Positions 10,900 to 42,420 of a stretch of 64,000 nucleotides of DNA are shown here, piece by piece. The translations under genes were made by a program, and so were the position numbers. The notes beneath the pieces are model-generated. The model saw only the letters and a program-made list of their open reading frames with translations, did not search any database and was not told where the DNA came from. The stretch lies in assembly GCA_964036045.1 (NCBI GenBank), contig OZ038378.1, positions 177,528,341 through 177,592,340 of the forward strand. The letters run 5' to 3'. The stretch's first letter is position 1. Each line of letters starts with the position of its first letter. The DNA is from Eutreptiella sp. 'Long Island Sound 2002' (taxonomy: Eukaryota; Euglenozoa; Euglenophyceae; Eutreptiales; Eutreptiaceae).

Positions 10900-11832
10900 C
10901 ACTGCATCGTCTGTGTCGCTGTCATCGCTACTAGACTGAGCCCCGTTCCCCTTCTTTGGTGTTGCCGCTTTGGAAACCCTTGGGGATTGTTTTTCCCGTG
11001 GGGTGATCTAGCCGTAGTACTACGCCATACGATAATCCAAGAGGGGCGTTCGCGGGGGAACAAGCGTACACCACAAGACACGACCGTGTGTGGCTGAGAA
11101 CTGCGGATCAAGAGGAGACCGAACAGCAAAGCCCCCAAACTGTACTTTGCGAAGAATGATACCCACACCTGGGGCGACGTGAACGGTGGCGAGGACGGTG
11201 TCGGAAACGGTGGAAACGATGGAGTTACCGTGGCAAGAGCGACGCAATGGGCAATGCCCAGGGCTAGGTGGAGCGTCCCCCATGCTCCGCCCTTCCGTGA
11301 ACGCCCGAGGCATGTCAACCACCGTGAGGTACAAGTGGGTATTCTCGTCGCACAACATGAAGAAGCTTGCCGTACCCGGTAAACTAGGGATGTCGGTGAC
11401 CGTCTTCGCCTTGAATTCCCAAGTGCCAACCTGGGTTGGTGCGGCACGCCCCACAACATGTACCACCCCGGGAGCAGCTCAGGCACACCGGCTCTTCTTG
11501 ACACAACGTGCCAGGGGACCTTTTGCTGGCGCTTTGCTTCCTGTTGCAACTTGTGCATGGTCCGACTTGACCAAGATTGTTAGGCAGAGGGGCCATGGTG
11601 CAATCAAGGGGCGGCAAAACTGGATATCCGGCACGGTGGGTCACACGATGTGTCCCAAAGCGCATAACAATGAGGACCAACGGCTCATACATACCGTTGC
11701 GCTTCCCAGGAAGGCGAACAATGCATTCGGGTGCGCAAATCAACGACTCCCCGGGCACCGTGGGGAATGGCAACGTGTTCCATGGCTGCGGCAAACCTCC
11801 AAAACTGAATGGGACAAAGTACCCGTTCATTG
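10900..11832 (-). pseudogene. 3' half of interrupted outer-element gene
   Basis: Continuation of the frame that ends at 28152 on the other side of the retrotransposon. It starts at the junction with NGYFVPFSFGGLPQPWNT, runs through VPGESLICAPECIVRLPG, and after a frame change near 11440 continues as TWEFKAKTVTDIPSLPG, FFMLCDENTHLYLTVVD and RKVQFGGFAVRSPLD to about 11050. It has the look of a beta-rich globular protein with no recognised family. Splitting by the inserted element plus the frame change make it non-functional. The in-frame match of the two halves across 16 kb is the main evidence that they are one gene. Confidence 0.5.
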
Positions 11833-11872
11833 CACAAGCAAAAAAAATCGGAAGCCATATGATTCATTCGGC
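11833..11872 (-). repeat. B2 terminal repeat of YR element
   Basis: About 40 bp (CACAAGCAAA..ATCGGAAGCC..ATTCATTCGGC) matching B1 at 18591–18631 with few differences. It forms the 3' end of the element on the minus strand. Confidence 0.85.
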
Positions 11873-12506
11873 GCGGCGTGTCAAATATTCACAAAGGAGA
11901 TGAGTACCTTCATAGACACAGCAGGGGACCGAGCACTGGTGGGTGGGCGGGCGGCGCCTATCCCCTCCATGGGCAGCTACCCCCGCCACGGGCAGGGTGA
12001 GTGGGCCCTGTGACTTTTATAAGAATTTTTGAAGGAACATTAATCATAAAGCAACGCAAACAGGGAGTGCAACTCTTGATAGCTACTTAGGCGTCACAAG
12101 TTGCCCACCCCCCACCTGGCGCTATGGCCCACGGAAGTCCATGTTGTAATGAGGGGAAAAGTATGTGAAAAGGGGTGTTATTTTTTGGGTATCCAAACCC
12201 CCCTGGTGGCAACATGCAAAAACAAGGTGTGTATTTCAATATATGCCATTATTTGCATTTCTGGAAACACACAGATTTTCAAAATAAAGACATTCAATCA
12301 CCAAAATATAGTGTTGTTTTACATTTAGACCACTGCATTCCAGTGTGGGGGGGGGGGGGGCTGCCAATTTTTCTCTCCCCTTTGTTCGAGGTTGATCACA
12401 GAACCCCCCTATACACCACAGATGAGGGAACCCCAAACATACCTTTCATTGAAGCACACAGAAAACTATCCCAAAGCATGTACTTGTATTTCCTATTTTA
12501 ACCAAT

Positions 12507-12830
12507 CTGGCCGAAATTTCGGCCAGCTCTTCGAAAAATGTCCAAACACATGGTCCTATTTGACAGACAGGCCTAAGCTGGCCGAAATTTCGGCTAGGTC
12601 CATCGAAACTCCGAATATGATCACTGAAATGGGTACCTAAGACAGTAGACATGAGCAAGGAACACAGGAGCAGTGACATTTGAACAGGGTGTGCAACATA
12701 ATATACTCAATTACAAGCAAATACTTGCCACCTGACGAATCAAAGCAGACTTTTGCAGTGCCTATGGGGAAACACAATAATAAAAAGCTGAAGAGGCTGA
12801 GGACTGCATGCTGGCCAAAATTTCGGCCAG
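12507..12830. repeat. Palindrome cluster, 3' end of element
   Basis: Copies at 12507–12526 (perfect), 12578–12597 (one arm altered, CGGCTAG) and 12811–12830 (CCAAAA variant). The first two are 71 bp apart. They follow the stop of the last gene at 12870. Confidence 0.85.
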
Positions 12831-12869
12831 ACTTCATACTGACAGGCAATATAAGCAGCAGGACTGGCA

Positions 12870-15402
12870 TTAGCGCTTGCGCAGACCAGATGCACGGGGC
12901 TTCTTAGCACCTGTGTTAGCAGGAGGCTTGGCAGGGGCTGCAGCACCAGGCTTGGCAGTGGCAGAGTTCTGGGACTGTGTGTTTCCACCCTGGGATGGTG
13001 AAAAATGATTCACAAAAGTATTCATACCTTTGCCAGTAGGGGCAACAATGCCTGAGGAGGAAGCTGGGGTGGCCTGAGCGCACTGCGTGCCACTGGGTGA
13101 GGGGGCAGGGGCAGTTTTGGGTTTCTTCTTTGGAGTGTGTGTCTCTGGTTGCGACTCTGCCTCCCCATCTTGCTCCTCAGGATCCTCATCTACATACCTG
13201 ACCCCAGAACAATCCACAAGAAAACCCGCCCCCAAGTCGTGGTACACATCCTCCCATGACTTGGGGGGGCACGTGTCGGCGTTGGTGATAGCTGCTCTGA
13301 TGGACTGAACAAACTCATCAGGCACAACAGTCTCCTCACCCAAAAGGGCACACACAACATTACAGTCGCTGGAAAACCTGGTAGACATCATGCTTGCAAA
13401 ATACACAGACAGAGTCCCCAGCAAAAACCAGTTGCCTGCCCGTTCTGGGACCGGAACCAGGCTCAAAAGAAATGAGAATATCTCAACAGGCATCACAGAC
13501 GACATGGGTCCTTCAGTAAAAGCCACGTAACGGGGCAGCCTGTTATCAAAGGCAATGGCAGAACAAATGGAAACCAGATGGGACGTAGAAGTGTACAGCG
13601 GGGTCTTGCTTGACAAATTGTAAATTGCAACATCACACTGATACATATCCTCAGCCACAGTGGCCTTCAAAGCAGCAACAGTGGCTTTCACATCAGCAGA
13701 CTCACCCGCAATGAACACAGGCACACCGGACAAAAGCAGCTGCGCAACCAGGTTATGCAAACTAGCTGTATAGAGGCGGGGCACCTCAATGACACAAGCA
13801 GCAAAGGGCAGTGAACTAATGATACTGGGAACAGGGACTCCACAACGCATTGCCATCAATTCCACACGGCCTGACTCTGCAATGAGTTTGCCTGTGCTTG
13901 ACTCAACGAGGGACTCCCTAGCACACTGGATACTGACCAGACCAGTATCAGATTTTTCACAAACAGGCTTAGCAACAGGCTTCTGCAACAATCCCCGCAA
14001 CCCCTCATATTTGGGTTCCTTCCAAAGAGGGGCCTTAATTACTGCTGACCACGGGGACCAGGGGTTTTCTTCAGTCCAGGTCCAACTGCCATAAGCTACC
14101 TTCAGGTGTGATGCAATAGCGCACTGCCTTTTGGCCATCTCGATAGTACCAAGTGTAGCTGCAGACAGGTGGTGTCACAGGGTGGGCTCCTATTGTGCAT
14201 TAATTGAACGACACACAAGCTGGCCGAAATTTCGGCCAGGTCGGTCGATTCATTCGAATACAAACCCCTGTTTGACCAAAACATACCTCTGGTGTTGTTC
14301 ACAAGCCCATTGGTAACCGCCTCGGGATGAAGAATGTGCCAGGACCACATCTGGGCCTTTTTAACATCTTTTATAATTTTTTTGAGACCAGGTAGGGTAC
14401 TTTTTGTCCCATCCATGTAACCTACGATGTCGCGAAGTCGGTCAGGCGTGATGCCTTCCACTTCCTTGAACGTACCCAGTGCGGGATGTAGTCCGCGCTT
14501 TTCCATGGCTGCCATGGCGTCTACTGAAGCAAGACCCACAAATTTCACCAAACGCCCAACACCACCCCACCGTTTGGCAACAGCACTCTGCACAGGAGAA
14601 CATGTGGAACACAGAAGATGGCCGAAATTTTGGCCAGGTCGATCGACAAAACCGAATTAATAAACGAAACACACCACAGTGCCTTCCTCGGCAGTAACAC
14701 CACACTCTTCAAGCATAACAGTAATGTGATGGTACAGGGTGTACTCATTGGCATCCTCATCCTCAAGACTATCCAGGAGTAGGGACATTCGCTCCGATGT
14801 GGTGGATGCTGAGCCAGTCCTGTTTGACTTCATAACCACCAAATACCAGGGTCCAATCCGGAGTCTCCATATTTTTCATCTCAAATTCGGTCTTGTGTTT
14901 TTGGGCAGCAGTGTAAACATGCTGACCCCCCAACAGAACCCAGCGAGTGGCTGTGCAACAGGAATATTCGTAACAGCAGGGTCGAAAATTCAGACGCGAA
15001 AACGGTACTATCGAGAAGAATACCACAACACACATACGAGTGACTTTATAAAAAAGAAGATCCTGGATGTAATCCACGGGCGGGGCTGCCTTCAGATCGT
15101 CGTAGCGGCGTTGCACGCGATCATCCGAAATCCTACGGACCTGCCCAAATTTTTCGGTCGTGGTTGATAATAATCTGATCCCACCGAACCTTTATTTTCG
15201 TCGTTGACGTAACCCAGTCGGATAACTTGATGGAGGATGATGAATTTTTCTTTGGTGCGGCCTTAGGCTTCTTTTGAAGCCCCTCTGTGCTCGCCTGGTC
15301 CTCTTGAGACTGGGATTGCACTTGAAATTGCCCATTGTCTGCTGCAGGCTCCCCATCTGGCGAAATAGCCATGTCCTGTGATACCCCTCCAGGCTCAGTC
15401 AT
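12870..15402 (-). CDS. Unknown spliced gene A of palindrome element
   Basis: Proposed exons are 15402–15190, 15140–15038, 14950 to 14675 (see below), 14587–14287 and 14158–12870. The ATG at 15402 gives MTEPGGVSQDM; the stop at 12870 follows GLRKR. The introns at 14588–14674 and 14159–14286 have convincing borders (GTGTGT..GTGCAG and GTATGT..CTGCAG), keep phase and each hold one palindrome. The frame changes once near 14820–14860; either a 28-nt intron or a frameshift would explain it. Exons 4 and 5 give a helical segment (KRWGGVGRLVKFVGLASVDAMAAMEKRG region), then about 290 residues of mixed globular sequence. The C-terminal 110 residues are disordered and rich in Pro, Lys and Gln (KKKPKTAPAPSPS; AKPGAAAPAKPPANTGAKKPR), suggesting nucleic-acid binding. 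No family recognised. Confidence 0.65.
14220..14239. repeat. Intronic palindrome
   Basis: A perfect copy of the 20-bp palindrome inside the last intron of gene A (14159–14286). Confidence 0.9.
14618..14637. repeat. Intronic palindrome, variant
   Basis: A two-mismatch copy (ATGGCCGAAATTTTGGCCAG) inside the intron at 14588–14674 of gene A. Confidence 0.85.
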
Positions 15403-15521
15403 AAAATAAAGGGCTACAGGGCAACATTTCATGAAGGGGAGAGTTCCCAGATAGCAAACAACAAGCACAGATCAACCAAAAAAGGACCAAAACGGACTGC
15501 CTGACAGGAAAATCGGATAAC

Positions 15522-15680
15522 CTGGCCGAAATTTCGGCCAGCACTGCTCTGCATGTCAAACCACTGTGTACAAATACCATTCTGAGAGGCTGGCCGAAAT
15601 TTCGGCCAGAACCTTATGTCATTTGTGTTCTGGGGGTAGCCATATGACAAAACAACAAGTCTGGCCGAAATTTCGGCCAG
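15522..15680. repeat. Intergenic palindrome triplet
   Basis: Perfect copies at 15522–15541, 15590–15609 and 15661–15680, spaced 68 and 71 bp. They lie just upstream of the ATG of gene A (15402) and after the end of gene B. Confidence 0.95.
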
Positions 15681-15767
15681 AAAAACATGAAACAGCAAAT
15701 AGACACACCAAAATCACTGGCAATGCGTGGCAGAACCCATACCACAGTGACAAACACAGCTGCAAAC

Positions 15768-17682
15768 AGAAATCAGTCCCAGTCCTGGGTATCCACACCG
15801 ATGTGTTCCGCCTCATCTAGGGCTTCGAAGGAGGCAACGCTGTCTGCATCACAATCAATATCGTGGTCACTATCACAAGAGTCGACAGCACTGGAATCAT
15901 CAGGGGCGGGGGGGGGGGGGTACTGGGCGGGGGGGGGCCGGGGGGGGGGGGTACTGGGGGGCCTCTGGCTCGGGGCTTCGGGGGTGGCTTTGGAAGCAAG
16001 GCAATTCCACCAGGAGCAGCAGCAGGAGCAGCAGGCGGTGCACGGTTGGCAGCGCGGATAGAAGCATGTGCAGTACGCAACACCCCTTGCTCGGCAGCAG
16101 TGCGGGCAGGTGCATTTGTCTGTAAAAAGTCCTCAACACCCTCAGGAACCCTGGTACGCGCAACTAGATTTTGCATTGCATGCAACGTAACCATTTTTAA
16201 ACGGTCTGTGGTGATTCGTGTCCTAGACACGGTATTGGGGAACGTCAAATCCTCAACTGCATCCAGTCTTCTCACCTCAACTTTATAGTCCGGAACGGGA
16301 ACACAAATGGGCAGGCTCTGTGTATGGGCTGTCAAGATGAATTGTTTAAGATTGGCAGAGAACATTGCCACGGATCTCTCAGTCAGCACACCACGCAAAA
16401 CTTTCTCTCCCGGTTGGACAGGGGGAAGTGTCAGAAATAAATCAGACGACTGTTGGACACTAGTACAGGCAGTGTTGCGGCGACAGTGGGCTGAGAACCG
16501 ACTCAGAAGTGCCTCACCCAGCTCCTCAGAGTGGATACACCCTAGGGAGGCGGAATGCCACTGACTCCAAAACAAAAGAGCAACAGCGGTGGTTTTCGCA
16601 TACTCTGTGGTTAACTGTTCCTCGGGCTTTAGGATGTTCAGCATGAGCAGTAGGGACATCTCAAGTGCCCGCTTAGCTACAATACCGGAACCTGCCCCCC
16701 GTCCCTCCTAGTTGCACTCACGAACCAAAGTCCCAATGCTGAAAGCAGCTGGACAGTATGTGTACAGCAAAGCCTTAAGGGCTAATAACATACGCAAACC
16801 CTTGCGCTGAATGGGTGTCAAGTCCCGCTGGCTATTGAGCAGGGAAGTGACGCGGTCATCTAGTCTGCCTCTATTGGACGATGTGGCTAGCATGAGTCCA
16901 AGCAACGTCTTCTCCATATGGATGACCTTGACCTTGCGAGGGAGGATAGACCCAACTTGAAGGCTGTTCCCCTGCTCCAAAAACTTAATGAACGGCAGGA
17001 ACGCCCTGTAGATCAATTCAACGCAATACTTATAGCTATGCCATACTCCGTACACCAAAGGAAAACCCAACAGTAATTGTGGTACATTCCAGGGAACATG
17101 AGCAGCACCAGAACACAGCTTAAGTAGGGCAAAGTGTATTTTCATGTCCACAAGCAGCGGAACACAGTGTCTGGTGCGGTGTTCCACACATGACAAATCA
17201 ACCACGAGTTGCAAAAGCTCTTTGTGTGTGCCGGAGCGGAGCTCAGACAGGAAAAAGGGTCTCCAGTTGAGGGAACGAACATTTTTTCTGGCAATATCCA
17301 AAGGAGCACGAACCCAAACTCTCTGAATACCTTGGTTGGCAACATCAATACGATCAAACAATGCTCTATGTGAGCGAAAGATGTCATCAGCAACCTTTGG
17401 TACCCTGGCCTCAATTTCGGCCAGCTCCGGCAGACCCCGGTATGCAGGTAGGGCAGTAGTGTGCAAAACAGCAACAGCTGTACAGTTTAGGGTTAAGTCG
17501 GGTGAATGGGGATCAGCTCCCGACCTGTAACGCCTCAGGTTATCAAACCATATACAAACTTGCCTACGGTGCATGGTGTTCCACAAGTTGTGTGCTGCTA
17601 GTCCAGCACGATGGTGAATGGACTCCTGCTTAGTGTTACACTGACCAAGGACTCCTACCTTACGGCGTTGGCGGCAGGACAT
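15768..17682 (-). CDS. Unknown spliced gene B of palindrome element
   Basis: An ATG at 17682 opens 320 codons. A GTGAGT donor at 16721 and acceptors at 16692 (GGGCAG) or 16677 (TTGTAG), both in the same phase, connect to the frame that runs on from 16691. The N-terminal 80 residues contain VCIWFDNLRRYRSG and SPDLTLNCTAVAVLHTT. The first could carry a catalytic Asp of a DDE nuclease, but that is a guess. The middle is helical and rich in Leu and Arg. The C-terminus enters a proline-rich run encoded by G/C tracts (15908–15955). Read straight, it ends in a hydrophobic tail at 15817. Shifted by the tract it gives an acidic tail, DSSAVDSCDSDHDIDCDADS, ending in QDWD and a stop near 15768, which looks more natural. 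A palindrome-like sequence at 17405–17424 is part of the coding sequence (ELAEIEA). Confidence 0.6.
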
Positions 17683-17688
17683 AATACC

Positions 17689-17991
17689 CTAGTTGTAACC
17701 AGACCCACAGTTAGAGTATGGGAGGGCCATACGGCGCAGCAGGGAGTATAGGGCATGGAACTGTGACAAAAATGTCATGTACCATCGTGGGGGCTTCTTC
17801 TCAGTGGCGGCAGCCTTCAACTGTGTCAGGGAGTGCCGGCTCCTGCGATTCTTCCGCAACATGAGGGAGAATTGCAAAAGCTTTTGCAGAGTCCCACCAC
17901 GTAATGCATTTCGCAACAGCCCTTTGGCTGTAGTAGCAAAAGCACCAGTAACTGCAGCATGTACAACATTGACAGTAATAGCAGAAGACAT
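17689..17991 (-). CDS. Small basic protein of palindrome element
   Basis: ATG at 17991, stop at 17689, 100 residues. It begins MSSAITVNVVHAAVTGAF, is basic in the middle (LMLRKNRRSRHS) and ends YSNCGSGYN. Its stop lies only 4 bases before the ATG of gene B at 17682, so it is either the first cistron of a compact transcript or the first exon of gene B with an unseen splice. No family recognised. Confidence 0.45.
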   Translation of the reverse strand: MSSAITVNVVHAAVTGAFATTAKGLLRNALRGGTLQKLLQFSLMLRKNRRSRHSLTQLKAAATEKKPPRWYMTFLSQFHALYSLLRRMALPYSNCGSGYN

Positions 17992-18062
17992 TAATGCTGA
18001 GACAAGAAAACAGTTATGTAGGAGTGTATGGTGTAATACTCATGAACAACGGCAATTGCAAG

Positions 18063-18363
18063 CTGGCCGAAATTTCGGCCAGGTGTGTTCAAAGGGGAAA
18101 TAATTGCTTAAATGTTCAAAAATAGGAAAAGCTGGCCGAAATTTCGGCCAGACCGCCCAAAAACCAGAATATAAGTGCTTGAGTAGTGAACAGACCAAAA
18201 AGCTGGCCGAAATTTCGGCCAGCCCTAAGAAAAATGAAAATAACTATGCCTATTCACCAGGAAACCAAAAAGCCGGCCGAAATTTCGGCCAGAAGGGTCA
18301 AAAGCTGCATATACACATAGTTGTTTGCAATGTTACCCAAAACCTGGCCGAAATTTCGGCCAG
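18063..18363. repeat. Five-copy palindrome array, 69–71 bp period
   Basis: The 20-bp palindrome occurs at 18063–18082, 18132–18151, 18203–18222, 18273–18292 (CCGGCC at its start) and 18344–18363. Start-to-start spacing is 69, 71, 70 and 71 bp. The sequences between the copies are not repeats of each other. The array lies upstream of the first gene of the element, where a promoter or replication/transposition control region would be. Confidence 0.95.
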
Positions 18364-18590
18364 CTTCAGAAAAACGTCAAATACAACACACTAGAAGACG
18401 GGGATACACAAGGCTAACACATCAACACGTATTTCAACGGGTGTCACACAGCTCTGCCAACAACTTTGGTCACATACGTCAAATAACATACTCAAAGTAG
18501 AAATGTAGAATATTGTCAAATCGCGCGTATACGGGGTCTTAGAGGGTGGGCAACTTGTGACGCCTAAGAGCTAAAGCAAAACAGCGGTTG

Positions 18591-18631
18591 CACAAGCAAA
18601 GCAAAATCGGAAGCCATATGATTCATTCGGC
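18591..18631 (-). repeat. B1 repeat of YR element
   Basis: About 41 bp matching B2 (11833–11872). It abuts A2 at 18590/18591, as expected for the B1–A2–B2 structure. Confidence 0.85.
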
Positions 18632-18639
18632 ACGCTGCT

Positions 18640-19193
18640 TTACTCCTGAAACACCCCCCCCTCTCGGCACCAAGAGGGCGAGATTGCAGATTGCGTGAAG
18701 CACCCAGGCGTCAGGAAAGACAGGATCCAAACAGGGCAGGGAAGGCCAGAGAACGTAAGCAGAGCTTGAAACCGGTTCCACGCCGACGCCGCAACCATAG
18801 CGTGGCTGCCCCCGAAATCACTGTCTATCCTGCTGAAGCAGTCCGTAGGTTTCAAATCACCACGGACCCATTCAAGGAAGGTGGAAAGGGGGGCTCTAAA
18901 GGAGAGATAAAAAAGCCTGCGCAGCTGCCTGTTGTGGCGGTGAAGGCCTGAAGACGCGCGCATACCTGCACACCTATAGGTTGTTCCAGGGACGCAGCAT
19001 TGTCCCCTACGAGTCGAAAAACCGGCCAATTCACATTAACTATGAAGCGCAAGCCTTTTATAACCCCATCTAATTCGGCCTCCTGTTGTGTGCGCACATC
19101 ACTGCTGCATTTAAAAATCCCGCCACCGAAAGCTGTGCCCCAAAGGCCTACATTATAAGTGTGGACATCAAAAGCGGCATCGATGAAAATCAA
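18640..19193 (-). pseudogene. RNase H domain of YR retrotransposon
   Basis: The minus-strand frame from 19193 reads IFIDAAF (first acidic residue), then QQEAELDGVIKGL (Glu on the first helix), then RLVGDNAAS (third acidic residue). After a frame change near 18950 it continues in another frame with a helix and EWVRGDLKPTDCFSR, the usual C-terminal Asp motif of retroelement RNase H (W-V-G-NPAD-SR). It degrades the RNA strand during cDNA synthesis. The order after RT is that of DIRS/Ngaro and VIPER. The frameshift makes it defective as read. Confidence 0.75.
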
Positions 19194-19235
19194 GCCTCGC
19201 GCAGCAGGGGGAGGGGGTAGAATAAGAGCCGGAGT

Positions 19236-20501
19236 CTAGCCCCGGCGAACCATAACCAGGCAATGCAGGAGACTGAGCCTGAGCGGACAAGCCCTAACAA
19301 ACAAGTCACCCCATATGATGTGGCACCACCAGCCCACTAGAAAAGGGCAGGCCCCAATTTGCGGTCTCAGGGCCCAAGAAAAGCGACCCACTACCCGGCG
19401 TGCATGCTGACGAGACAGGGGCAAGATGGCGTTGCGCAGCCACAGGCCAAACAGCATTTGCCACACCTGCGCCATCGCCAAAACCCCCGCAAGCTCCCCC
19501 GAGAGCACAAGGTGTTTACCCAACCAATCAATCTCAGGGACCGGCTCCAGAACGCTTTTTGGGCTAAGTATGGCCCCCTCGAGACGTAAGGCGGAGCACA
19601 TCTGGCTTGCTGCAGACCTAACGTTGCGTGAACCATAACCAACTACTAAAAAGTCGTCGAGGTAGTGCAGCACCAAGACGGACACTAGGGAGAGGCGACC
19701 CATAGGTCGTGCCGTCAATGTCGACTCTGAAAGAATCTTGGTACTGGGGGGGCAATCTCGGACTCCGGAAAGCATTTTTAAGGTCTACGTGGCACGCAAG
19801 CAAAGGGGCTCCTAGGGGGGGGGGGGCGGCCAGGCGTTGCTCCTCTAATGCGCGTAAAAATGGGTCGTTCAAAGAGGCTACAAGGGGGGGTGGCAGAGAC
19901 AAATGGCCCGACCCCGCACTCATATGGTGAGCACATGTCACAAAGTCTGTCCTCCACCACCGGGAGGGTGAAGCCTTGTGGTGACCATCAAAATTCACCA
20001 AATGAATGATCATGAATGCCGTTTCCCGATTTTTGGGTACGGGGAACAACCATCCATTCGGGGGCAAAGAGGCGTCGCATGGTCGCAAACCCCGTCCCGC
20101 ACCAGAGCCCTCGCCATACGGAGACCCTCCCCAAAGACTGCTCTAATCCCCTGTAAAGGGCGGGAGGCAATCGCTGAAAAGTCCTCGGGAACCACGGCAT
20201 GTCAACTGAAAGCGGGGATATTGATGGACCCCACCTCCCCAATGCCCCTATCCAAGACTTCCTCAGAGAGGACGACGAGCTCGGGCTTCGGCGAGGTCGA
20301 GTCCTTGAACACCACTGCCCATGTACCAGGCTCCAGACGATCTAAGGCCACCCCTAGATCCTCCGCAATCTCTCTACCCCATAAGATTAACAATCGGAGA
20401 CGGGACCGCAACAAGGGGAGGGCCCGTAACGGTAGCCTCAAGCCTTCGGAAGCGTGAGCCAGCCATCGTATTCCCCTTGGGGAGTCCAAAAGGTCCTCCA
20501 C
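19236..20501 (-). pseudogene. Reverse transcriptase of YR retrotransposon
   Basis: Three overlapping frames carry the RT core in order. About 20242–20088 has the N-terminal part with the PEWMVVP/NGWLFPVPK region. 20088–19780 has LLACHVDLKNAF, the motif-A Asp context. 19720–19236 has VLVLHYLDDFLVVG, the YLDD catalytic motif, followed by GAILSPKSVLEP, EIDWLGKHL and RRVVGRFSWALRP, typical of DIRS-type RT. At least one frame change lies near 19770, at a G-run. Sequence at 20501–20242 in the same strand may be a linker or the RT N-terminus. Confidence 0.85.
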
Positions 20502-20717
20502 GGCCTGTTCCCTGGCGTCGACTGAGCAGTTGTTTGGACTGGCCGAGGGTCTTGCTGACAGCCCGCTTGGGGCAGGGTCTCGCCCCTGTGGCCGGATCCC
20601 TTAGGCAACCGACGAACTTGGAGAATGTTGGAGCTCATGGTCTATCTGGGAGGGAGGGACCGGAGGCTGTGGTTGAATTTCAGATGCGACCCACGAACTT
20701 GGATGCCGAAGAACCCG

Positions 20718-21854
20718 CTAGTCCATCAGGAGGTTGGCTTTTGGACTACTGGGCTCTGGGCTTTGTGACCCGGGGTTATTTTCGTGCTCTGGAGGGTGCG
20801 GCGCTGGCTTTCGCCCGGGGCGGCTCAACCCAAACTCGTGGTGGTTCTGCGGCACGCATTGGCGGCGGGGGTACTGCGTCCCCTTCGGAGTCCTCCGCAG
20901 GTGTATCTTGGTCCCTTCGAGAGCGCTTGTCCCCGGCGAATGAGGGTCTTTCGGGGCATTCGCCTGGTACACACAAGTCGATGAGGGATTGTGGCCAAAA
21001 GTCCTCCATGGCACTGTTTTCCAGCGCACTCCGGTAGACGTCGGCCATGGCAGTTGCGAAACGGGGTGAAAGACGAACTCATCGGGGGCGGCAGCATACC
21101 AGTGGGCCATTCTGACATGGTCTAGCGTCCCCAGCAGCACAAGTGGCGCCACGGGAGACCCCTACATCGCAGGAACGCCGCACCCGCACATCGCCAACTG
21201 TGCAAGCGGTAGCTGGCGAATACGGAGCCCTAGAGGAGGCGAGCCAGGCCCTCTTCCAAGTAGGATGAGGACAAGGACTTCACGACCCACGTGCGTCTTC
21301 CTGAGCCAGGGGACCCACTCCGCAACGTAACGCCCCACGTCCCTGGAGACCCACCGTTCGTCTCTTTTGATCCCCGGGTACGAGATTGAACCAAAACACA
21401 ATCTTGAGCGACGGATGGAGGCGATTTCCCCCACCCTTGTGAGGCACGCAAATGAAATGGCGGCCGCGGCAAAGATGGACCAGTCGGTAGGGGTGCCGCA
21501 TGCCTCCGCCATGGTTTGCATGACGTGCGGGCCTGCATAGGCCCGTTCGCCTTTGGTAGCCACTGGTGCTTTTGCGAGACGCCAAAGTCTGTCCCAACCC
21601 AGGTCCGAGATCCATCCCAGCAATCGGACAGCTTTAAGGGCTGATACCGCTCCACTGAGTGTAGTTGGGCGATATCCCAATTCGAAAAGGAGGAGCAGGA
21701 CCTCTTCAGCCACCTTCTGGGTGTCCTCGGCGGGGGTAGGTCGGTAAAAGAATCCAAACCGGCGCAGATGGGACCAGTAGTTTTTACGGGTACCCTCCTT
21801 CCAGGTGCTAACCAGGCAAGCCTGCACGTCATTGGCCGGGTTTGAAAAGCCCAA
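20718..21854 (-). pseudogene. Tyrosine recombinase of YR retrotransposon
   Basis: The N-terminal core-binding helical domain reads WKEGTRKNYWSHLRRFGFF and LGYRPTTLSGAVSALKAVRLLG. The catalytic domain begins with ACLTRVGEIASI, which supplies the first Arg. Near 21200 a frame change is needed to read RLHSWRCAGAAFL, the H-x-x-R box, and another to read MAHWYAAAPDEFVF near 21095, the nucleophilic Tyr. All three catalytic groups are thus visible but in three frames. The enzyme would circularise or integrate the cDNA. It lies upstream of RT on the coding strand, which is unusual. Confidence 0.8.
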
Positions 21855-21986
21855 TTCTCGCCACAGGCATCCGATTTTGACCCGGTCGATAAGGACCCCC
21901 TTCCAACTATCACCCGGGGGGTTGGGGGGGTTCTTGGGTGGTGCTGAGACTGGCGACTTCGTTCCCAGGTCCCCCTGTATGTCTCG

Positions 21987-22648
21987 TCATTCCAGATACG
22001 GGCAGCGCCAAACCCAGTGGCGCACAACTTCACCACAACTCCTGTAGGTCTTGCACGGTCCAACCGGATCCTCACTCGTTTTGATCCACTCACCTTTGTG
22101 TATTTCGAAGTATTCCACGCCCTCAACTAACTTGAACCTCTTTCTCATAACCCGCTTCAGTCGCCTGCCGGCCTCCGTCAAGCCCTCGTCGTCCCGAATT
22201 TCAGCGTCTAGCCTACTTTTGGATGAAGATGAGGACCGACTGGAACCCTCGTATCTCTCTTTGTAATTATCCATCGCCGTGGTGACCAGGACCCACATGG
22301 CATCAACAAAACCCACAAACCTCTCGGGAACTGGCGGGGGATCCTGCATGTCTGCATTGCCATCCGCCTCTGCTTCTTCTCCTCTGCCGTCAGGTCCAGG
22401 AGGATCGACTTCAGCTCTGCGTCGTTCATCTTGGGGACCAGTGTGGCGGCATCTGCGGAAGGGGTCCGGTGTCTCAGGAAAGTGGTGAAGAGGAACCGGG
22501 CCCGGGTCACCCACTGAGGATTATTAGTACGGAGGTCAGTTTCGGCGATGGCCTGGAAAGAAAGCGGGGGAACCAGGGGTTTTCCCTTGTCGGGGGCCTC
22601 GGACAGGGTCTGCAGGTGTGATGTCAAAGACTTGATCAGGATTCCTTG
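21987..22648 (-). pseudogene. gag-like gene, 3' part
   Basis: The helical segment TNNPQWVTRARFLFTTFLRHR and the following KMNDAELKSILLDLTAEEKKQRR lie in one frame. DAMWVLVTTAMDNYKERY, a serine-rich stretch, RRLKRVMRKRFKLVEG and a final C-x5-C-x5-H-x4-C cluster (CKTYRSC..H..C) near 22020 lie in another. The last is a zinc-knuckle-like end expected for a nucleocapsid. The 5' part is at 27769–27936, across the inserted transposon. A frame change near 22400 breaks it. Confidence 0.6.
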
Positions 22649-24237: not shown

Positions 24238-25543
24238 CTCAAAACTCCCGTTCACTCCGCCGGCCTGAACTGCCCCCATGGCCTCCCGGAAGAGCGCGGC
24301 AGCACTAGGGGCCTCCACAGGGGCCACAGGGGCTGCCGCGCTGGCCATCGGGGCCGCCTGGGCCCCCGGTTTGGCCGCGGTCGCGGCCGTGGTCGCCGCC
24401 TTGGCGGCGCGGGACTGGGGCACCAAGCCCTCGTGCGAGGGCTGGCAGACGGGGCTGGTAGACGGGGCGGGGCTGGGCCAGCACAGTGGCCCAGTCCACC
24501 CCGAAGGCCACCGCCTTGCCCTGGCGCCACTGCCGCACCAAGCCCAGCTGGGCCCAGTGCTGCAGCAGCACCAGCCAATGCGGTGTCCCGAAACGGACGC
24601 CGCGCGGGTCGTAAAGCAAATTCAGCGCGGGCAGGGCGCCCACGCTGATTGCCTCCGGCATGGGGGCAAGGGGGCACAAGGGTGGGGTTTCCAGACCCAG
24701 ACCCCCCCCCCCTGGAGGCATCCTTACCCCAGGTCCCCCCGTGTTTCCCCTCGTTCCGGCGGATCAAGCACCGGATCAACCGCCGAAAAATCCACATGAC
24801 CGTCATGTGGCTATGGGGGGGGGGGGAGGAAAAAACGGGTTGATCCCCGGCGCACCCCTCCTGCAGCGCCTGGGCTGACCAGGGGATCGGCCCCGCCTTT
24901 CTGGCGGTGGCCGATTGGAGGGGGGGGGGGGGTCATTGGGGGGGTCAACCTCCTGAACTTCCCCGTCCCCGTCCCCCTCGTCCACCACCACTTCCCCCTC
25001 CCCCTCGGCCTTAACCCCCCCCCCCCCCAGGCTGGCCTCTACCCCCCCCCCTGCCCCTGACTCCTCTCCCTGTCTCTCCTCTCCCTTTTCCGCTTCTTTT
25101 TCTTCTTCTTCTCCTTCTTCTCCCTCCGCCGCCTATCCGAGGAGTCTTCGCTTGACTCCTCGGTTGGCGGATGGGCGGCGGGAGGAGGAGGAGGTGCTTG
25201 TGCTGGTGCTTGTGCTGGTGCTGGAGCTGCTGCTGCTGCTGGTTGAGCAGCAGCCAGTCGTTGCTCCAATTGTTGCATCTAAGAGAGCGAGAGGATGAAA
25301 AAAAAAATTAATTTTTGTGCCCCCGACTTAATTTCTTGAAATTAATATTATCTAGCGAAAAATTAATTAATATATTAAATACTAATGACCGCGCCTATTA
25401 ATATTAATCTCGAAATACTAAACGGAGCACCGGAAATATTAATTGTTATACGCAAGCAAGCATGCACAAGCAAAAAACACCAGGGCTTCGTTGTTCGCTT
25501 TGAGCATGTCGGCCAACATCTTTTGCATGGCCGAGGCGTCCAT
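24238..25543 (-). CDS. Coiled-coil/low-complexity protein of 5.1-kb element
   Basis: The ATG at 25543 gives MDASAMQKMLADMLKANNEAL; the donor at 25481 and the acceptor before 25278 (CTTAG) join it to MQQLEQRLAAAQ, an Ala/Pro-rich linker and a Lys/Arg/Glu-rich stretch. After further frame changes at poly-C/G tracts a globular part is visible at 24700–24450 (LLYDPRGVRFGTPHWLVLLQHWAQLGLVRQW), then an Ala-rich tail to 24238, where GTATGT marks a donor. This is probably the second gene of the transposon. The basic stretch suggests DNA binding or nuclear targeting. Confidence 0.4.
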
Positions 25544-25619
25544 GGCAAGGAGAAAACAAAGCTAGTGGTGGGGAAGCAAGGGTGGAGGGCGGGGGGCTAT
25601 GGGTGGCCATGAGTTTGGC

Positions 25620-27491
25620 CATGGTGCATGGGGCGGTATGGGGGGTCCCAGAATTGCGTAGCGGAAGGTCAAATTTTAAAAACCACCACTCCCACACTTG
25701 GGAAACTACCTTCCCCTCCCGCTCTACTTGGGTTGCCCCCGGCATCCCCCCCCCCCCCCCGGCCCGAGTGGTCATTGTATGCGCGCTTAAGGATGGCGTT
25801 GAGGCTCTCAACGACATCCACGCACACGGCACCCAACCCGACCCCCAAGCGGCGTGCATTGGCCACGGCCTCGGTGACATCCTCCTCCAAATAGAGGAGG
25901 TAGTTTGATTGACACGCCTCCTTGCAACAATGTGCACGGTAGGCGCGTGCCACCTCGGCCGCACGTAGGTCCCCGGGGGGCGGCTTGTCCGTGTACAATT
26001 CCCGGAGGAGGTCACGCATGGCCACGACGGCTTGCCATTCACCATCCTCCAGGACGTAGTCCAACAACGGACCAAGTTCCTCCCACGCGAGGAACAACGC
26101 ACGGGCCTCCTCCCCGTCGGGTGCCCCCGCCGCACCCAACTTCACACCCGTGCGGGCCCGGTAGAGGACCCGTTGCACGGCGTTGGTGTTCTCCTTGGGG
26201 AGGTCCGCAAGGCGTGTCTCGATGAACGCCACTTGGAGCCGGCCAATGGCCATGCAACAATGGAGGATGCATAGGAAAACCATGCACCGGTCAACCACAA
26301 TGTGTGGATCCCCTATGCATCCCCCATTCTCCAAGCTACGGCCGGTCTCCTTGTAGCGGCGGCGGGCCGCCTCCTCACAGTCCAAGGTGCGCCGGGTCGC
26401 CACGTTGACCCATGCCGCCGCAACCTTGTCCCACACCCCCATATTGTAAATGGAGCCCACCAAGGGCGAGGTGGACACACCGATAAGGCGCCGCACGAAC
26501 GGTTGGTCTCCCCCGATGACCAACCTGCTTGGCACCCACCGCGACACCCAATGAAACTTCTCGCAGTCTTGTATGGACTGCAATACCTACAAAAAGGACA
26601 TGGATTAATATTTACATTAATTTCTCGAGATTAATATTAAGTTAATTTTTCAGTCGGCGTTAATATTAACCGAAAACAAGAAATTAATCTCGAGAAATTA
26701 ACGCAAAAATGCAAAAATTAACAAACAACGAATGGGCCACAAACCTTCAAGTTGTCGGCCCATATCGTTGCAAGTGCCGCCATGTCCTTGTCCCCGCATA
26801 CGGCCATCCCTATCACCCACAAGTACGCGGGTGTGCGGCCCCGTGCGCCGTGGTTGAGGAGCCCAATAGAGAGTTGGGTCCAACTACCACCGGCGCACGG
26901 GTACGCATCCCCACGCACAATGAAGGTGAGGGCCCTTGTCCAATCGATGGTCTCCACTAGCGATGGGCGTAATTGGACGTACCGGGCCCATGAGGGTAGC
27001 GGCCAAGAGCGCCCACTCGCGGGGGGATCGGGGACGGACACGGGTGGTCGTAGGTCAAGGGGGGTGACCAACTCCTTCCACGTGCCCATGAACGTATCCC
27101 GAGTGGGGATGGGGCGGGGGAACGGGAGGCCCGTTGCGGCCGAGTAGGCCGACCCCCGGCGGCTCATGTACTCCGACACGTGCCGGAAGCCGAGTTTGGG
27201 GACGTTCAAGTCCATGAGGAGGCCGATGAGGTCCGGGGCCGGGAAAAGGTGGGAGGCATATTGCTTCACCGCGTCCACTTGCTTAGTACGAATAAGGGAG
27301 GGGTACCCAAACTCCATGGCATCGGACCATCGGGCCCGGGCCAAAGGGGATGAGGCCACCCACTCACCAAGGAGTTGGGAGACCAAAGGGTCCCGCAAAC
27401 TCTTGGCCCCGCTCAAACGCACGAGCGTCATGTTAAGCTCGGTAAGGGTGTCCCGAGAGAAAGGCATAACAAGGGCTATACAAGGGAACAT
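25620..27491 (-). CDS. DDE-type transposase of 5.1-kb element
   Basis: The ATG at 27491 is followed by exon 1 to 26745 (AAG|GTTTGT) and exon 2 from 26586 (TTGTAG|GT); the join keeps frame (ADNLK–VLQSIQDCEKF). Exon 1 ends with FIVRGDAYPCAGGSW, a likely first catalytic Asp, then WVIGMAVCGDKDM. Exon 2 has LVIGGDQPFVRRLIG, a likely second Asp about 80 residues on. Later comes DVVESLNAILKRAYNDHS, a likely Glu, then after a G-run frame change near 25760 WEWWFLKFDLPLRNSG. The architecture fits a DDE transposase; I do not know the superfamily. A truncated relative at 50855–51884 shares exon 1. Confidence 0.7.
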
Positions 27492-27768
27492 GGTGGTGTG
27501 GAGTGGGGGGGAATGCGGGCAACCGGAGGGGGGGTGTCCAAGACACCCACCAACACAACATTGGAACCTCTCTACTATACCGTTGTGCAACAATATACCA
27601 CGTAACACCCCTTGTAGGTCCGCATATGTGCATGGAAAAATGGTTACAAATGGCCCGATCGCAAAAATTTGACTTTAACCTGTTGATATTTGCGAGATTA
27701 ATATATTAACGCCTTCATATATTAAAAATTAAAATTTAACATATTGACTTTAATCTAGGTCACTAGGG

Positions 27769-27974: not shown

Positions 27975-28151
27975 GGCGCCAGTTCTCAAAAATGTTCACA
28001 GAGACGATGACTGCCGCGGCCTGAGCGAAACACAACACGACCTTCGTGCTGAAGGCCCTGTGACTTTTATAAGATTGTCTGAAGTAACAGCAATCATAAA
28101 GCAAAGCAGACAGGGAGTGCAACTCTTGTTAGCTAAAGCGAACAGCGGTTG
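27975..28151 (-). repeat. A1 terminal repeat of YR element
   Basis: The 5' end of the element on the minus strand. 28054–28151 is about 85% identical to A2 (12004–12085 plus 18574–18590) and keeps the uninterrupted TTAGCTAAAGC site that shows where the palindrome element inserted in A2. A weaker match extends to about 27975. Confidence 0.85.
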
Positions 28152-29118
28152 TACTATCCGCCGCATGTGACCCCACAACCACAGTGTAGCTAGTGAGGAA
28201 GATCCCGTTATCAGGAACAAGGCGTCTTTGAACCGCACGATGAACCGGCCCCGGTGATTCAGTGGGAAGGCGCACCAGCTTGACGAATAAAAGATGGAGC
28301 TACTTTTGGTCACCCGCAAAGGACGTTCGCACCCTGTCAAGGTGCTTCATGGCAAACCAGCGGACTTGTGGTAAAAGAGCCGTGTAACCATGCAAAAGAG
28401 TTGTCACTTCCTGTGCCGAAAGACCAGGCACGTCCTCAAGGTACAGATCCTGATGAGGGGGCTTCGCCGCGACGGTCTCCCAGTGAAACTTGCTATGGGC
28501 CGCCCTGACCTGTTGTCGTAGCTCAACGATGATGTCGATTGATTCTTGCGCAAGAAGGTATGACCAGCGTCGATCTGAGTCCTCCGCATGTGCCTCCATC
28601 AGTGTGGTACCATCTGCCCCCTTGACACGGTCGTCGGACACCCCAATAACTAGTGGTGGTGGTAGAGAGGGGATGGTAATGGGGTGGTTGTTGTGTGACA
28701 CCCATAGCCCAGCGGACGTTGTTCCTGGGCCATGTTCACTCCATTGGTGAGGGGAGTCACTTCGGAGGGAGTACACAGGACTTGACAAACTTGGATCCTT
28801 TTCCATGGACAGGCAAAGGCGGTGCTGCAAAGGTCCTTGCCATGATGTGTTTTTCCGAGAGGCCCCTTGGGGGGCATCTGCTCGGAGGTCCAGGCACCCA
28901 TTGTCATCCAGGTTCTCGAGGTACACCGTCTCCTGGCAGCCATCCCCATCCACGGCAGCTTGGGCATACTCAAACAAGTGCTCCGGGTCTTCGCCACTGG
29001 GCCGTACCACCACTAGCCGCAAATCTGGGTTCCCTTCGAGAATGTCGTGGAGGACGTCGCTGAAGCACCCTGGGGATCGCTTGGCAGTGAACGCGGGCAG
29101 CATCTTGACATCCGCCAT
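28152..29118 (-). pseudogene. 5' half of interrupted outer-element gene
   Basis: ATG at 29118 (MADVKMLPAFTAKRSPGCF). The frame is open to 28300 and contains DVLHDILEGNPDLRLVVVRPSGEDPEHLFEYAQAAVDGDG and RRWSYLLAQESIDIIVELRQQVRAAHSKFHWETV. A frame change near 28300 leads to KLVRLPTESPGPVHRA and FLTSYTVVVGSHAADS at the border of the retrotransposon, which continues in frame at 11832. No family recognised. As the most upstream gene of the GACAGG element it could be a regulatory or structural protein. Confidence 0.5.
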
Positions 29119-35960: not shown

Positions 35961-38640
35961 TTCAAGGGGGGCTCCTCCCATGGTTGTCAGCCGTTCTACC
36001 CCCCCCCAACCCCCCAAAGCAAGTTGGTGCAAAAAATTTCAGACATCTATATTGAGGAAATAAGCGTGTGGCCCTTGGAGCCCCTTTTCACAACCCCCCT
36101 CTCCCCCCCTGAATTTGCGGGGGCTCCAAGGGCCCCGCCCGCCCCAAGTAAAATTTACACCAGCCCAGGGGTGTCGCTGGGCTGCACTGCTGCCCCACCA
36201 TCGTCAAGTGACATTATTGTCAAGTGATGTGCCAAGTTGCGGGGTGACGTGGGGGACTGCCTCGCCTGCACTTCTGCAACCTGGCCACCCCATCTCCATC
36301 TGTTCCTTTCCTGCTGGGTTTCCTCCCGCCCAAGGCGCCTGCCCCGCCACTGCTCCGCCAGTCACTGCACCGGTGGCCACACCAGCTTCTCACAGAAAGC
36401 ACAAGGGGGAGCATGACACATGATGTGGGGAACAGCTACAGGGCCATCGCAAATTCTGGAGAGACAGGGAGGGACGGGCTGCGTGACACGTTCCTTTTTG
36501 GCGGAGGGGGGGGGAGGCACATTACAGAGGGGTCCCGTGAGCAGGAGTACAATGCAATTGTTTTGATTCCAATGGCTGCCACAGCCACTGCGGACTTGGT
36601 TCGGCATCTGCACATGTGGCCGGTGTGCCAGTCGTAGTCCCAGTCTGGCCGTAGGGCTGTGGCCTTGTGCAGACACGCTTTGCGCGCATCCGCATCTGCA
36701 CGGGTCATTGCAGGACTGCTCCTCTGCCGCCATAACATATGGAGTACCAGCGAAGCCCAATGGAGGCAGTGCGATGGACGCAGATCAAGGCCGCAGACCA
36801 TTTCCAGAATCTTCGGCAGCTGGGTGCCTTTGCCCGTGGCCTGTGCATTGTGTTCTGTCGAGCCTCTGCTAATTGTGGTGTGGTGTGCGGGTGGATTTGC
36901 GTGCTGAGCGGGGGCTGCACTTGAGGGCGAGGGAGGCGGAGCAGAGGCTTCAAGAGCCCTTGCAAAAACGCACACTGGCGGTTCTGAGTCGTTGCATGGC
37001 ACGTGCCGCCAGGTACAACGCGTTCCAGGGCTGTGCTGTTTCCAAGAACAGCGACCCCCGTAAACGCATGGTCAGCAGGGGTGGGGGAGACGGCCTTTGT
37101 GCCCCCCGGGGGTGTGTGCTTAGCCACGGGGGGGGGGGGGGGGTGCGCTGGCAAACCCACGCAGAAGCAGAATGTGGGAAATCCCTGGGACCAGACGTCT
37201 CCTACCCCCACGGGGGGGGACTATTTGCCCCCATGGACCCACTCACTCACCCAACGGCTGGTGCAACGCACAAGACACGAGCATTGGACGGGGCTTGGAG
37301 GGGATTGAGGGGTACCCTGGGCCCCCGCATGCCGGCCCTACGAGGGGGAGGGGGCGGTTGCTGGACCCCCACCCCCGCAGAATTCCCAGCGGTGGTTCCC
37401 AGCGCGTTGAGGCTGCCTGGGTTTTGCCATGGGAGGCCGCTCACCTCCCAGCGGCATGCGCCCCTGGCGGTCGCTTTTTTCCAAATACTCCGCGTGGAAC
37501 CCCCCCCCCCCCCGACCAACACAAGAACCACCGGGGGCGAGAGTTGGGACCCATCCCCATGCGCCCCGGGCCATGAACCGACATGCGCCCCAGAAATACG
37601 CCTCCTGTTGGCCACTTGAGCACCCCCGACCCCCTGGCCTTGTCGGCGCTCTGGCCCAGCGTCGTCAGTGGTGACGTTCACCAGGCCAGTAACCCCTCCG
37701 CCGGCCATGCAGCACAAACACCCCACTCCGCCGGACGGAAGGGCTCCGCCCCCAGCCCACAGCATGCGGGCCCCAGAGACGGGAGGGCTGGCACGTGAGT
37801 TCCCGGCCACCCCTCCGCGTTAGCGCAGCCCTCTGGGCGCTCAGCCAATATCCTACTGGCGAGGCCCCCCAGCGACGGCGCCGAAATCCTCCTGGTGAGG
37901 CGTCCCTCCCCCCTCCCCCCCTGTCCCACCGCCCGCACAGCCCTCGCCCCCACTGCGCCCCCTCCCCGCAAGCCTTGCACGCGCCAACCCTTCTCGCCCC
38001 ATTGCAGGGTCGTACGCTGGGCTGCTGACGCGACTACGCATGGGAGCGAGGGAATCGACAGAACGACGCGAGAAGCCTGGGGCTCTTGCAGACAACAGAG
38101 CACACGGCACAGCGCGTAACCGGGTCACGAAGGGCTGGCACGTGAGTTCCCGGCCGCCCTTCCACCGTGGCGCCCCCCACACTCTAGCCGAAATCCTTTG
38201 GTGAGGCCGCCCGGCGATGGTGTCAATATCCTCCCGGTGAGGCACCTGCCCCCCCACCCCCACCCCACCTAGACGCCAATATCCTCCTGGTGAGGCGCTG
38301 GGAGTGCAGTGGGGACGCCAAACGCCCATGGTGAGGCGTGGCCTTGCATCTGCTATGAAGCTGCGCATGCCTCTGCCAGTGTATACCAATATGAGTCCGT
38401 TTCCATGGCTGTCAATATGTGTGACATGTCAGCACAGCTCTGCCAAGAGGATGCATATGTGCATTTTCGACTTCGTCCCGATTCTGAGGTTTCACATTGC
38501 ATTGCCACAGAGCGTGACTCCACACCCCCTCCCACTCTGCCCCCCTTGCCCCGCCCCCCGGCCCCACCTCCTGCCACGCCCACAAATCCCCTTCCATACC
38601 AGGCAGCCCCGAGGCATACAGCCAGCGTGCCCTGCCCCTG
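35961..38640. other. Mostly noncoding, one weak exon candidate
   Basis: GC-rich, with G/C runs at 36500, 37128 and 37500 and a GGTGAGGC/CAATATCCT(C)C short repeat at 37850–38335. A minus-strand frame at 37002–36440 (LRPDWDYDWHTGHMCRCRTKSAVAVAAIGIKTIALYSC) could hold an exon, but I see no convincing borders. Confidence 0.4.
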
Positions 38641-38649
38641 CGATGTCCT

Positions 38650-41600: not shown

Positions 41601-42420
41601 CCGCATTACACCCCTGCGCAACCCCGCACTGCGCCCCTGCTCATTCCCACGTTGCGCCCCTACGCAGCCCCACACTGCGCCCCAATGCAATCCCACACTG
41701 CGCCCTTGCGCAGCCCCGCACTGTGCCTCTACGCAGCCCCACACGGCGCCCCAGTGCAGTCCCAGGCTGCGCCCCTGCGTAGCCCTGCATTACGCCCCTG
41801 CGCAGCCCAGCACTGCGCCCCTGGTCAATCCCATGGTCAATCCCACGCTGTGCCCCTACGCAGCCCCACACTGCGCCCTTGCGTAGCCCCACACTGCACC
41901 CCTATGCAATCCCACACTCTGCCCTTGCGCGGCCCCGCACCGCGCCCTTGCGCAGCCCGGCAGCCCACGCTGCGCCCTTGCGCAGCCCCGCATGGCGCCC
42001 CTGCACAGCCCTACTCTGTGCCCTCGCGCAGCCCTGCACTGCTCCCCTACGCAGCGCCCCACTGTGCCCTTGCGCAGCTCTGCATTGCGCCCTTGCGCAA
42101 CTGCGCACTGCACCCCAGCGCAGTCCCGCGCTGCGCCCCCACGAAGCCCCGCGCTGTGCTCATGTGCAGCCCCGCACAGCACCCCTGCACTGTCCCATGC
42201 TGCGTCATGCACAAACCCATGCTATCTTCTTACGCAGCCTTGCACTGTGCCCCTGCGCAGCCCCGCACTGCGCCCTGGCACAGTCCCACACTGCGCCCCT
42301 GCGCAGTTCCCCGCTGCACCCCTGCGCAGCCCTGCGCTGCGCCCTAGCACGGTCCCCGGATGCGCCCCCGCGCAGTCCCATACAGCGCCATGCCCAGTCC
42401 CATGCTGCGCCCCTGCACAG
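38650..42420. repeat. 23-bp minisatellite, about 3.8 kb
   Basis: Roughly 160 copies of a 23-bp unit close to CTGCGCCCCTGCGCAGCCCC plus GCA. Each unit contains a TGCGC..GCGCA dyad that can fold. Because 23 is not a multiple of 3, each strand reads all unit frames every 69 bp, and as the unit lacks stops this produces long spurious open frames on both strands. Higher-order duplications are visible: about 39001–39190 repeats at about 39285–39490 (offset 284), and 41133–41260 repeats at 41386–41515 (offset 253, 11 units). Confidence 0.95.
40977..41095. repeat. Inverted block within minisatellite
   Basis: For about 115 bp the unit runs in reverse complement (GGGGCTGCGCAGGGGCGCAG), flanked by forward units on both sides. 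Confidence 0.95.

Follow-up and report, generated by a model that had tools for sequence, protein, structure and literature searches.

The target motifs of VANC21, an anti-silencing protein of the VANDAL transposons of Arabidopsis, lie mainly in noncoding DNA, upstream of VANA21 and in the introns of VANB21 and VANC21, in the passages of PMC5735166 that map them, and the distribution of VANC target motifs in VANDAL elements is described likewise in the corresponding passages of PMC10398659. With regard to CACTA elements, the section of PMC2613891 that compares their proteins describes binding proteins that share little similarity, whereas the transposases are conserved. Here we analyse an insertion of about 6.5 kb at positions 12086-18568 of a 64,000-nucleotide stretch (the window) of contig OZ038378.1 from the euglenophyte Eutreptiella sp. 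'Long Island Sound 2002', which carries two genes, called A and B, and a repeated 20-bp palindrome, and which had been singled out in an original prediction made from the letters of this DNA. We read it as a cut-and-paste-type DNA transposon with terminal inverted repeats (TIRs) and a 5-bp target duplication, in which A would be the transposase and B a partner that binds the palindrome, the present copy being a decayed member of a large family; the probability that we attach to this reading is about 0.5.

Boundaries and genes of the insertion

The insertion is bounded by the TIR CTTAGGCGTCACAAGTTGCCCACCC, whose two copies begin with CTTAGG and are identical at 25 of 25 positions; they had been predicted to be perfect, as they are, but 24 bp long. 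A search of the window with this sequence, allowing up to three mismatches, returned two matches, which are both ends of the element, and none in 100 shuffles. When the two flanks were joined with one AGCTA, they aligned with a related repeat at 28054-28154 (90 of 102 columns, one gap), the alignment running unbroken through the single AGCTA. Since the joined flanks match this repeat, there is no ambiguity about where the element inserted or about the 5-bp duplication, and both the AGCTA duplication and the preserved empty site of the original prediction were confirmed. TIRs, target duplication and empty site were thus all found, as in a TIR (class II) DNA transposon, and, judged from the sequence, the ends, the duplication and the deletion derivatives described below are those of a cut-and-paste element. 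The insertion lies between the two copies of a ~46-bp direct repeat, at 11830-11875 and 18588-18634 (44 of 47 columns identical), the target being therefore an internally repeated region.

Gene A encodes a protein of about 720 aa in one unspliced frame. Residues 1-722 of P0133, a predicted protein from the searches described below, aligned to 17991-15820 in one stretch with 95% identity and no intron, so that the proposal of a spliced gene A was not borne out. The frame is interrupted by in-frame TAG codons at 17691 and 16710, which the original prediction had not mentioned. Readthrough, a variant code and micro-introns were all rejected as explanations, because tryptophan occupies both positions in six relatives (P0001, P0002, P0005, P0133, P0134 and P0135); P0008 has serine at the first. 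In addition, a C-rich tract near 15900-15980 shifts the frame ahead of an acidic C-terminus like that present in P0134 (747 aa). P0133 has the same shift, which may therefore be ordinary length variation or a sequencing error. As it reads, the copy at 12086-18568 is broken and predicted to be unable to make full-length A. Among ten gene A proteins chosen by hand, the acidic and histidine residues H177, D232, D282 and H318 are invariant wherever the two most distant sequences, P0079 and P0080, reach.

Gene B was modelled from an ATG at 15402 as five exons separated by GT-AG introns of 49, 87, 87 and 128 nt. The same exons stood out in a codon-usage scan for which gene A and the final exon of gene B served as training set. 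One frame change within exon 3, likewise absent from the original prediction, would be either a lesion or a missed intron. P0097 matches the last exon with 95.7% identity over 422 aa, and P0131 and P0132 are further relatives. P0131, the predicted protein of another copy, joins the first exon with later ones; for this reason the small frame that had been counted apart is most likely exon 1 of gene B, in agreement with the codon-usage scan. What remains of the predicted two spliced genes and a small frame on one strand is thus two genes on the minus strand, of which B is modelled as spliced and A is intronless. Direct comparison of proteins A and B revealed no similarity between them.

A palindrome array in the noncoding parts

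The palindrome CTGGCCGAAATTTCGGCCAG occurs at 14 sites in the element with up to two mismatches, nine of them perfect, three with one mismatch and two with two. A search of the window with its 18-mer core, allowing up to three mismatches, gave 14 matches, all of them within the element, 0.04 being expected; for the 20-mer, the closest match outside the element had six mismatches. Five sites are located upstream of A, another three in the spacer that separates it from B, three more downstream of B and two in gene B introns, so the predicted occurrence in both subterminal regions, the intergenic spacer and two introns was borne out. The remaining site, at 17405, is degenerate and lies in the exon of gene A; the accompanying claim that the palindrome is not found as such in exons therefore holds for intact sites, 13 of the 14 sites being noncoding. 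The scarcity in coding DNA gave a binomial P of 2.8e-6, calculated with exon limits that differ by a few bases from those of the final model and with the sites treated as independent, so that the significance would be overstated if clusters arose by duplication. Inside the clusters, seven of eight start-to-start distances are 68-71 bp and the eighth is 233 bp. The spacers between the palindromes are mostly unconserved, 16 of 21 pairs having z ≤1.7 against shuffles. A tandem-repeat array as the source of the 70-bp spacing was also considered, and Tandem Repeats Finder detected no array with this period.

Translated palindromes were also found at matching places in five relatives (P0134, P0136, P0102, P0131 and P0132), where they were read from predicted proteins that run into noncoding DNA. 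P0134 carries one upstream of A that matches the site at 18063, P0136 one downstream of A that matches the site at 15661, and P0102 contains the peptide across the 12811 site, downstream of gene B. The peptide of the intron 4 palindrome, LAEISAS, is VAEISAS in P0131 and LAEISVS in P0132, with one residue changed in each.

The sites might instead belong to a host factor, for instance a heat-shock-type activator. Their core CGAAATTTCG fits the pattern of a two-unit heat-shock element; GAAnnTTC occurs at 2.0 per kb in the element against 0.10 per kb outside, 11 of its 13 sites in the element fall within palindromes, and clusters are placed upstream of both genes. The three-unit element, however, is absent from the transposon, conservation extends past the core over all 20 bp, and positions in introns and 3' of genes would be unusual for promoters. 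We consider a host-factor origin of the array quite unlikely.

Relatives, classification and proposed mechanism

A search with the middle piece of gene A retrieved 95 protein clusters with 526 sequences, and a near-complete query added 11 clusters, including P0133 with 267 sequences, giving 106 gene A clusters overall. The last exon of gene B retrieved 40 clusters with 458 sequences, three of which are A-B fusions also matched by A. These clusters are predicted proteins grouped at 90%, which may derive from several assemblies or organisms and do not give the copy number of one genome; each search scored only about 8000 candidates. The matches sit on contigs of 120 different sizes, up to 6.5 Mb, and a scan of genome contigs with the middle piece of gene A found no relative. 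A large family with many copies is supported by these predicted proteins, and the big clusters of near-identical proteins suggest recent multiplication. Gene A relatives comprise close ones, a second subfamily at about 50% identity and the single sequences P0079 (38%) and P0080 (43%), while gene B matches end at 70% (P0130). In the fusions P0001, P0004 and P0009, the start of gene A is followed by the end of gene B in element order, and P0115 has the same arrangement by eye. The fusions are best read as putative internal-deletion derivatives and, because they map A and then B, they indicate that both genes are together and collinear in other copies.

The absence of a recognised family for either gene, as originally predicted, was upheld. 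Pfam gave no meaningful match for 50 gene A proteins (best E 0.046, in one member) and no convincing family for 26 gene B proteins (best Rod_N, E 0.003, isolated in three of the 26), and profile searches against PDB sequences yielded no match for A and only two for B (E 1.2 and 2.2). In open-licence papers, Repbase being outside this scope, we found no description of such an element, which we do not claim to be unpublished. Since there is no convincing Pfam or PDB relative while many protein-level copies exist, an unassigned TIR transposon lineage is supported, possibly at superfamily level. Of the predicted transposon or virus-like lineage, the transposon part is thus supported. A virus-derived or virus-like element would agree with two genes of unrecognised family on one strand between inverted repeats, but 6.5 kb with 25-bp TIRs argues against it, as do the lack of a viral domain in A or B and of relatives in viral collections: none was found in IMG/VR (three single-protein scans with six exact peptide patterns each, at close range) or by tblastn against phage records, and the best PHROG match of nine proteins had an E-value of only 0.028. 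The 16-bp core of the palindrome was present in 15 IMG/VR stretches, at one place in each and with no array, which was taken as chance. A viral origin is therefore very improbable.

The element could also be a divergent member of a known superfamily, either Transib-, hAT5- or KDZ-like or from a Repbase superfamily that Pfam does not model, in which case the palindromes would be ordinary subterminal sites. Transib target duplications are 5 bp, Repbase counts 24 superfamilies, not all of which are known to be covered by Pfam, and remote homology of A is easily missed because the depth of its alignment is low (effective number of sequences, Neff, about 2). Transib and hAT ends, on the other hand, start differently from those found here, and the Pfam results for the 50 gene A proteins, which included neither a hAT transposase or dimerisation domain nor a KDZ match, speak against membership. 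So does the motif of CxxC and Hx3-4H known from EnSpm, Mirage, Chapaev and Transib, as CxxC is absent from seven gene A proteins and a single Hx3-4H, before D282, is present in two of the seven; both parts are absent from gene B P0097. In the passages of PMC12730594 on target duplications, hAT5 also makes 5-bp duplications, whereas those of KDZ are 7 or 8 bp. We regard a hidden member of a known superfamily as doubtful, though with a real chance of being right.

A more specific proposal is that protein A belongs to the DUF6589 (PF20231) group and that the element is a TIR transposon of that group. By eye a few motifs agree in order, namely W/YFDN, LNxTxxxVL and then a D followed 36 residues on by an H, in a P-L-x-x-G-x-W/F-H context, D282 and H318 taking the places of D and H. 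This comparison used a single exemplar of the group, which Pfam confirmed as DUF6589 (E 2.3e-25). No statistical similarity accompanied these motifs: neither the gene A proteins nor their core consensus matched PF20231, the hhalign score of the gene A profile against the exemplar was 14.6, at the level of shuffles (best of 60, 20.2), and in open-licence literature DUF6589 was not linked with words in 'transpos-'. We hold this proposal to be improbable.

In the transposon reading that we prefer, protein A would be the transposase, being the larger and intronless product, with distant relatives that share H177, D232, D282 and H318; it is the better candidate because its relatives are kept at 38-50% identity while those of B end far closer. 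Protein B would be its DNA-binding partner, which evolves faster and would recognise the palindrome as a dimer, a dimeric reader being implied by a palindromic site. From its sites at the two ends, at the two promoters and in the introns, it could bring the ends together and/or keep the noncoding DNA transcribable, a role likened to that of TNPA for En/Spm or of VANC for VANDAL. We favour B as the reader because placement in noncoding DNA and introns, with near absence from exons, is the pattern of the VANC21 motif. A palindrome repeated around and inside genes while coding parts are avoided suggests a self-recognition system, and sites outside exons could be conserved without constraining the proteins. 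As the present copy yields no full-length A, it would move only with proteins from intact copies.

Several observations weigh against these assignments. No catalytic domain was recognised in A with Pfam, PDB sequences or the core consensus, and AlphaFold models of P0133 and of the P0027 core were unusable (mean predicted local distance difference test, pLDDT, 43.5 and 42.4), so that A is named a candidate transposase by elimination. The model alignments had 50 rows for P0133 and 46 for the P0027 core, hand-picked from the 106 gene A proteins; P0085, P0038 and P0076, which are broken or largely unalignable, were included in a first alignment (A1, 34 rows) and then dropped. D282 is replaced by H in the copy P0136, outside the ten-protein set, and the asymmetry in divergence between A and B may be a product of the limit on candidates in each search. 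Moreover, A itself could be the palindrome reader, because it has a weak homeodomain-like stretch at residues ~122-155 (window ~17530-17630, minus strand) around RRQVCIWFDNLRR, with a W-F-x-N-x-R pattern like that of a homeodomain recognition helix. Pfam scored this stretch below its cut-off (the core consensus at E 0.045, a fragment of P0133 at E 0.083), no homeodomain match was obtained in three second-subfamily fragments, and PDB gave no support; it is a lead only, which would suit a DNA-binding domain ahead of a transposase core. Finally, five spacer pairs score higher than the rest (three at z 2.3-2.4, two at 3.6 and 4.5), and the right-hand palindrome cluster, when shifted by one unit, aligns to itself with 69% identity over 243 bp, a figure that includes the palindromes. 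This cluster is therefore likely to contain an old duplication, which may account for some of the regular spacing; the array there may have been born in this way, with sites and register kept while the intervening DNA drifted.

A bolder extension of the transposon reading is a new superfamily of eukaryotic DNA transposons with an independently evolved VANC-like self-recognition, in which a dimeric element protein would read the 20-bp palindrome at ~70-bp intervals through the noncoding parts, introns included, in order to stay unsilenced and to pair the ends; we put it forward tentatively and as unlikely. Should A be a transposase outside the known superfamilies, the eukaryotic DNA transposons on record would gain a further lineage. 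Should the palindrome be read by A or B, the element would be a second, independent transposon that labels its own noncoding DNA, and would put to the test how general the VANC strategy of Arabidopsis against host silencing is.

Table 1. Coordinates of the element and its parts in the window
Feature	Position	Strand	Details
Left target duplication AGCTA	12081-12085		Sequence; single copy in empty site 28054-28154
Left TIR, 25 bp	12086-12110	+	TIR search
Three palindromes downstream of gene B	12507-12830		12507-12526 perfect; 12578-12597 and 12811-12830 with one mismatch each
Gene B (model)	12870-15402	-	Exons 15402-15190, 15140-15038, 14950-14675, 14587-14287, 14158-12870
Gene B intron 4	14159-14286	-	Perfect palindrome at 14220-14239
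Gene B intron 3	14588-14674	-	Palindrome with two mismatches at 14618-14637
Three palindromes between A and B	15522-15680		All perfect; start-to-start 68 and 71 bp
Gene A	15773-17991	-	Single frame from ATG 17991; acidic C-terminus ends at 15773
Degenerate palindrome inside gene A	17405-17424		Two mismatches; palindrome scan
Five palindromes upstream of gene A	18063-18363		Four perfect, the fifth with one mismatch; intervals of 69, 71, 70 and 71 bp
Right TIR, 25 bp	18544-18568	-	TIR search
Right target duplication AGCTA	18569-18573		Sequence; empty-site alignment

Surrounding sequence and comparison with known systems

A putative host retroelement is located at 18852-22520, and repeats related to it lie near 11830-12085 and 28054-28154. 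On the minus strand the retroelement has a recombinase frame ahead of the reverse transcriptase, and inspection by eye showed a YLDD motif like that of reverse transcriptases and a stretch resembling RNase H; a weak Phage_int_SAM_4 (PF13495) match at 21162-21986 (E 0.0056) is below the Pfam cut-off, and Pfam found nothing in 19236-19784 or 19618-20142. The surrounding repeat looks like part of a tyrosine-recombinase retroelement, and its gene order is perhaps that of Kangaroo from Volvox. A second repeat, at 25446-27768, has frames of 305 and 318 aa with no Pfam match, and its part 26755-27768 recurs inverted at 50854-51653 with 69-72% identity; gene A showed no similarity to 25669-26586 or 26718-27674. 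A long low-complexity tract at 38294-42700, strongly C-rich on the plus strand, has several open frames on each strand and encodes CAPAQP-like peptide repeats. Rfam and tRNA searches of the window found nothing.

VANA is a Mutator-like transposase, and no VANA- or VANC-type match was present among the Pfam results for A or B, VANC sequences not having been compared directly. From Transib and hAT5 the element differs in that no protein similarity and no CxxC/HxxxH motif were found, while it shares the 5-bp target duplication with hAT5 as reported in the passages of PMC12730594 cited above. It resembles En/Spm (CACTA) and its protein TNPA in having repeated subterminal sites for what would be, by analogy, a faster-diverging element protein, and in its deletion derivatives, as far as these are treated in the relevant part of PMC2613891. 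According to the same source, En/Spm makes 3-bp duplications and has CACTA ends, in contrast to the 5-bp duplication and CTTAGG ends found here; moreover, no CACTA transposase match was obtained, and the present palindromes also lie in introns and between genes. With VANDAL/VANC of Arabidopsis, as presented in the motif-mapping passages of PMC5735166 and PMC10398659, the element shares a multigene organisation and a family-specific motif array that occupies noncoding and upstream DNA, introns included, and is rare in coding sequence. In those passages the VANC21 motif is non-palindromic, nine bases long and arranged in dense, fast-changing tandem repeats, unlike the 20-bp palindrome described here, which recurs at intervals of about 70 bp between largely diverged spacers.

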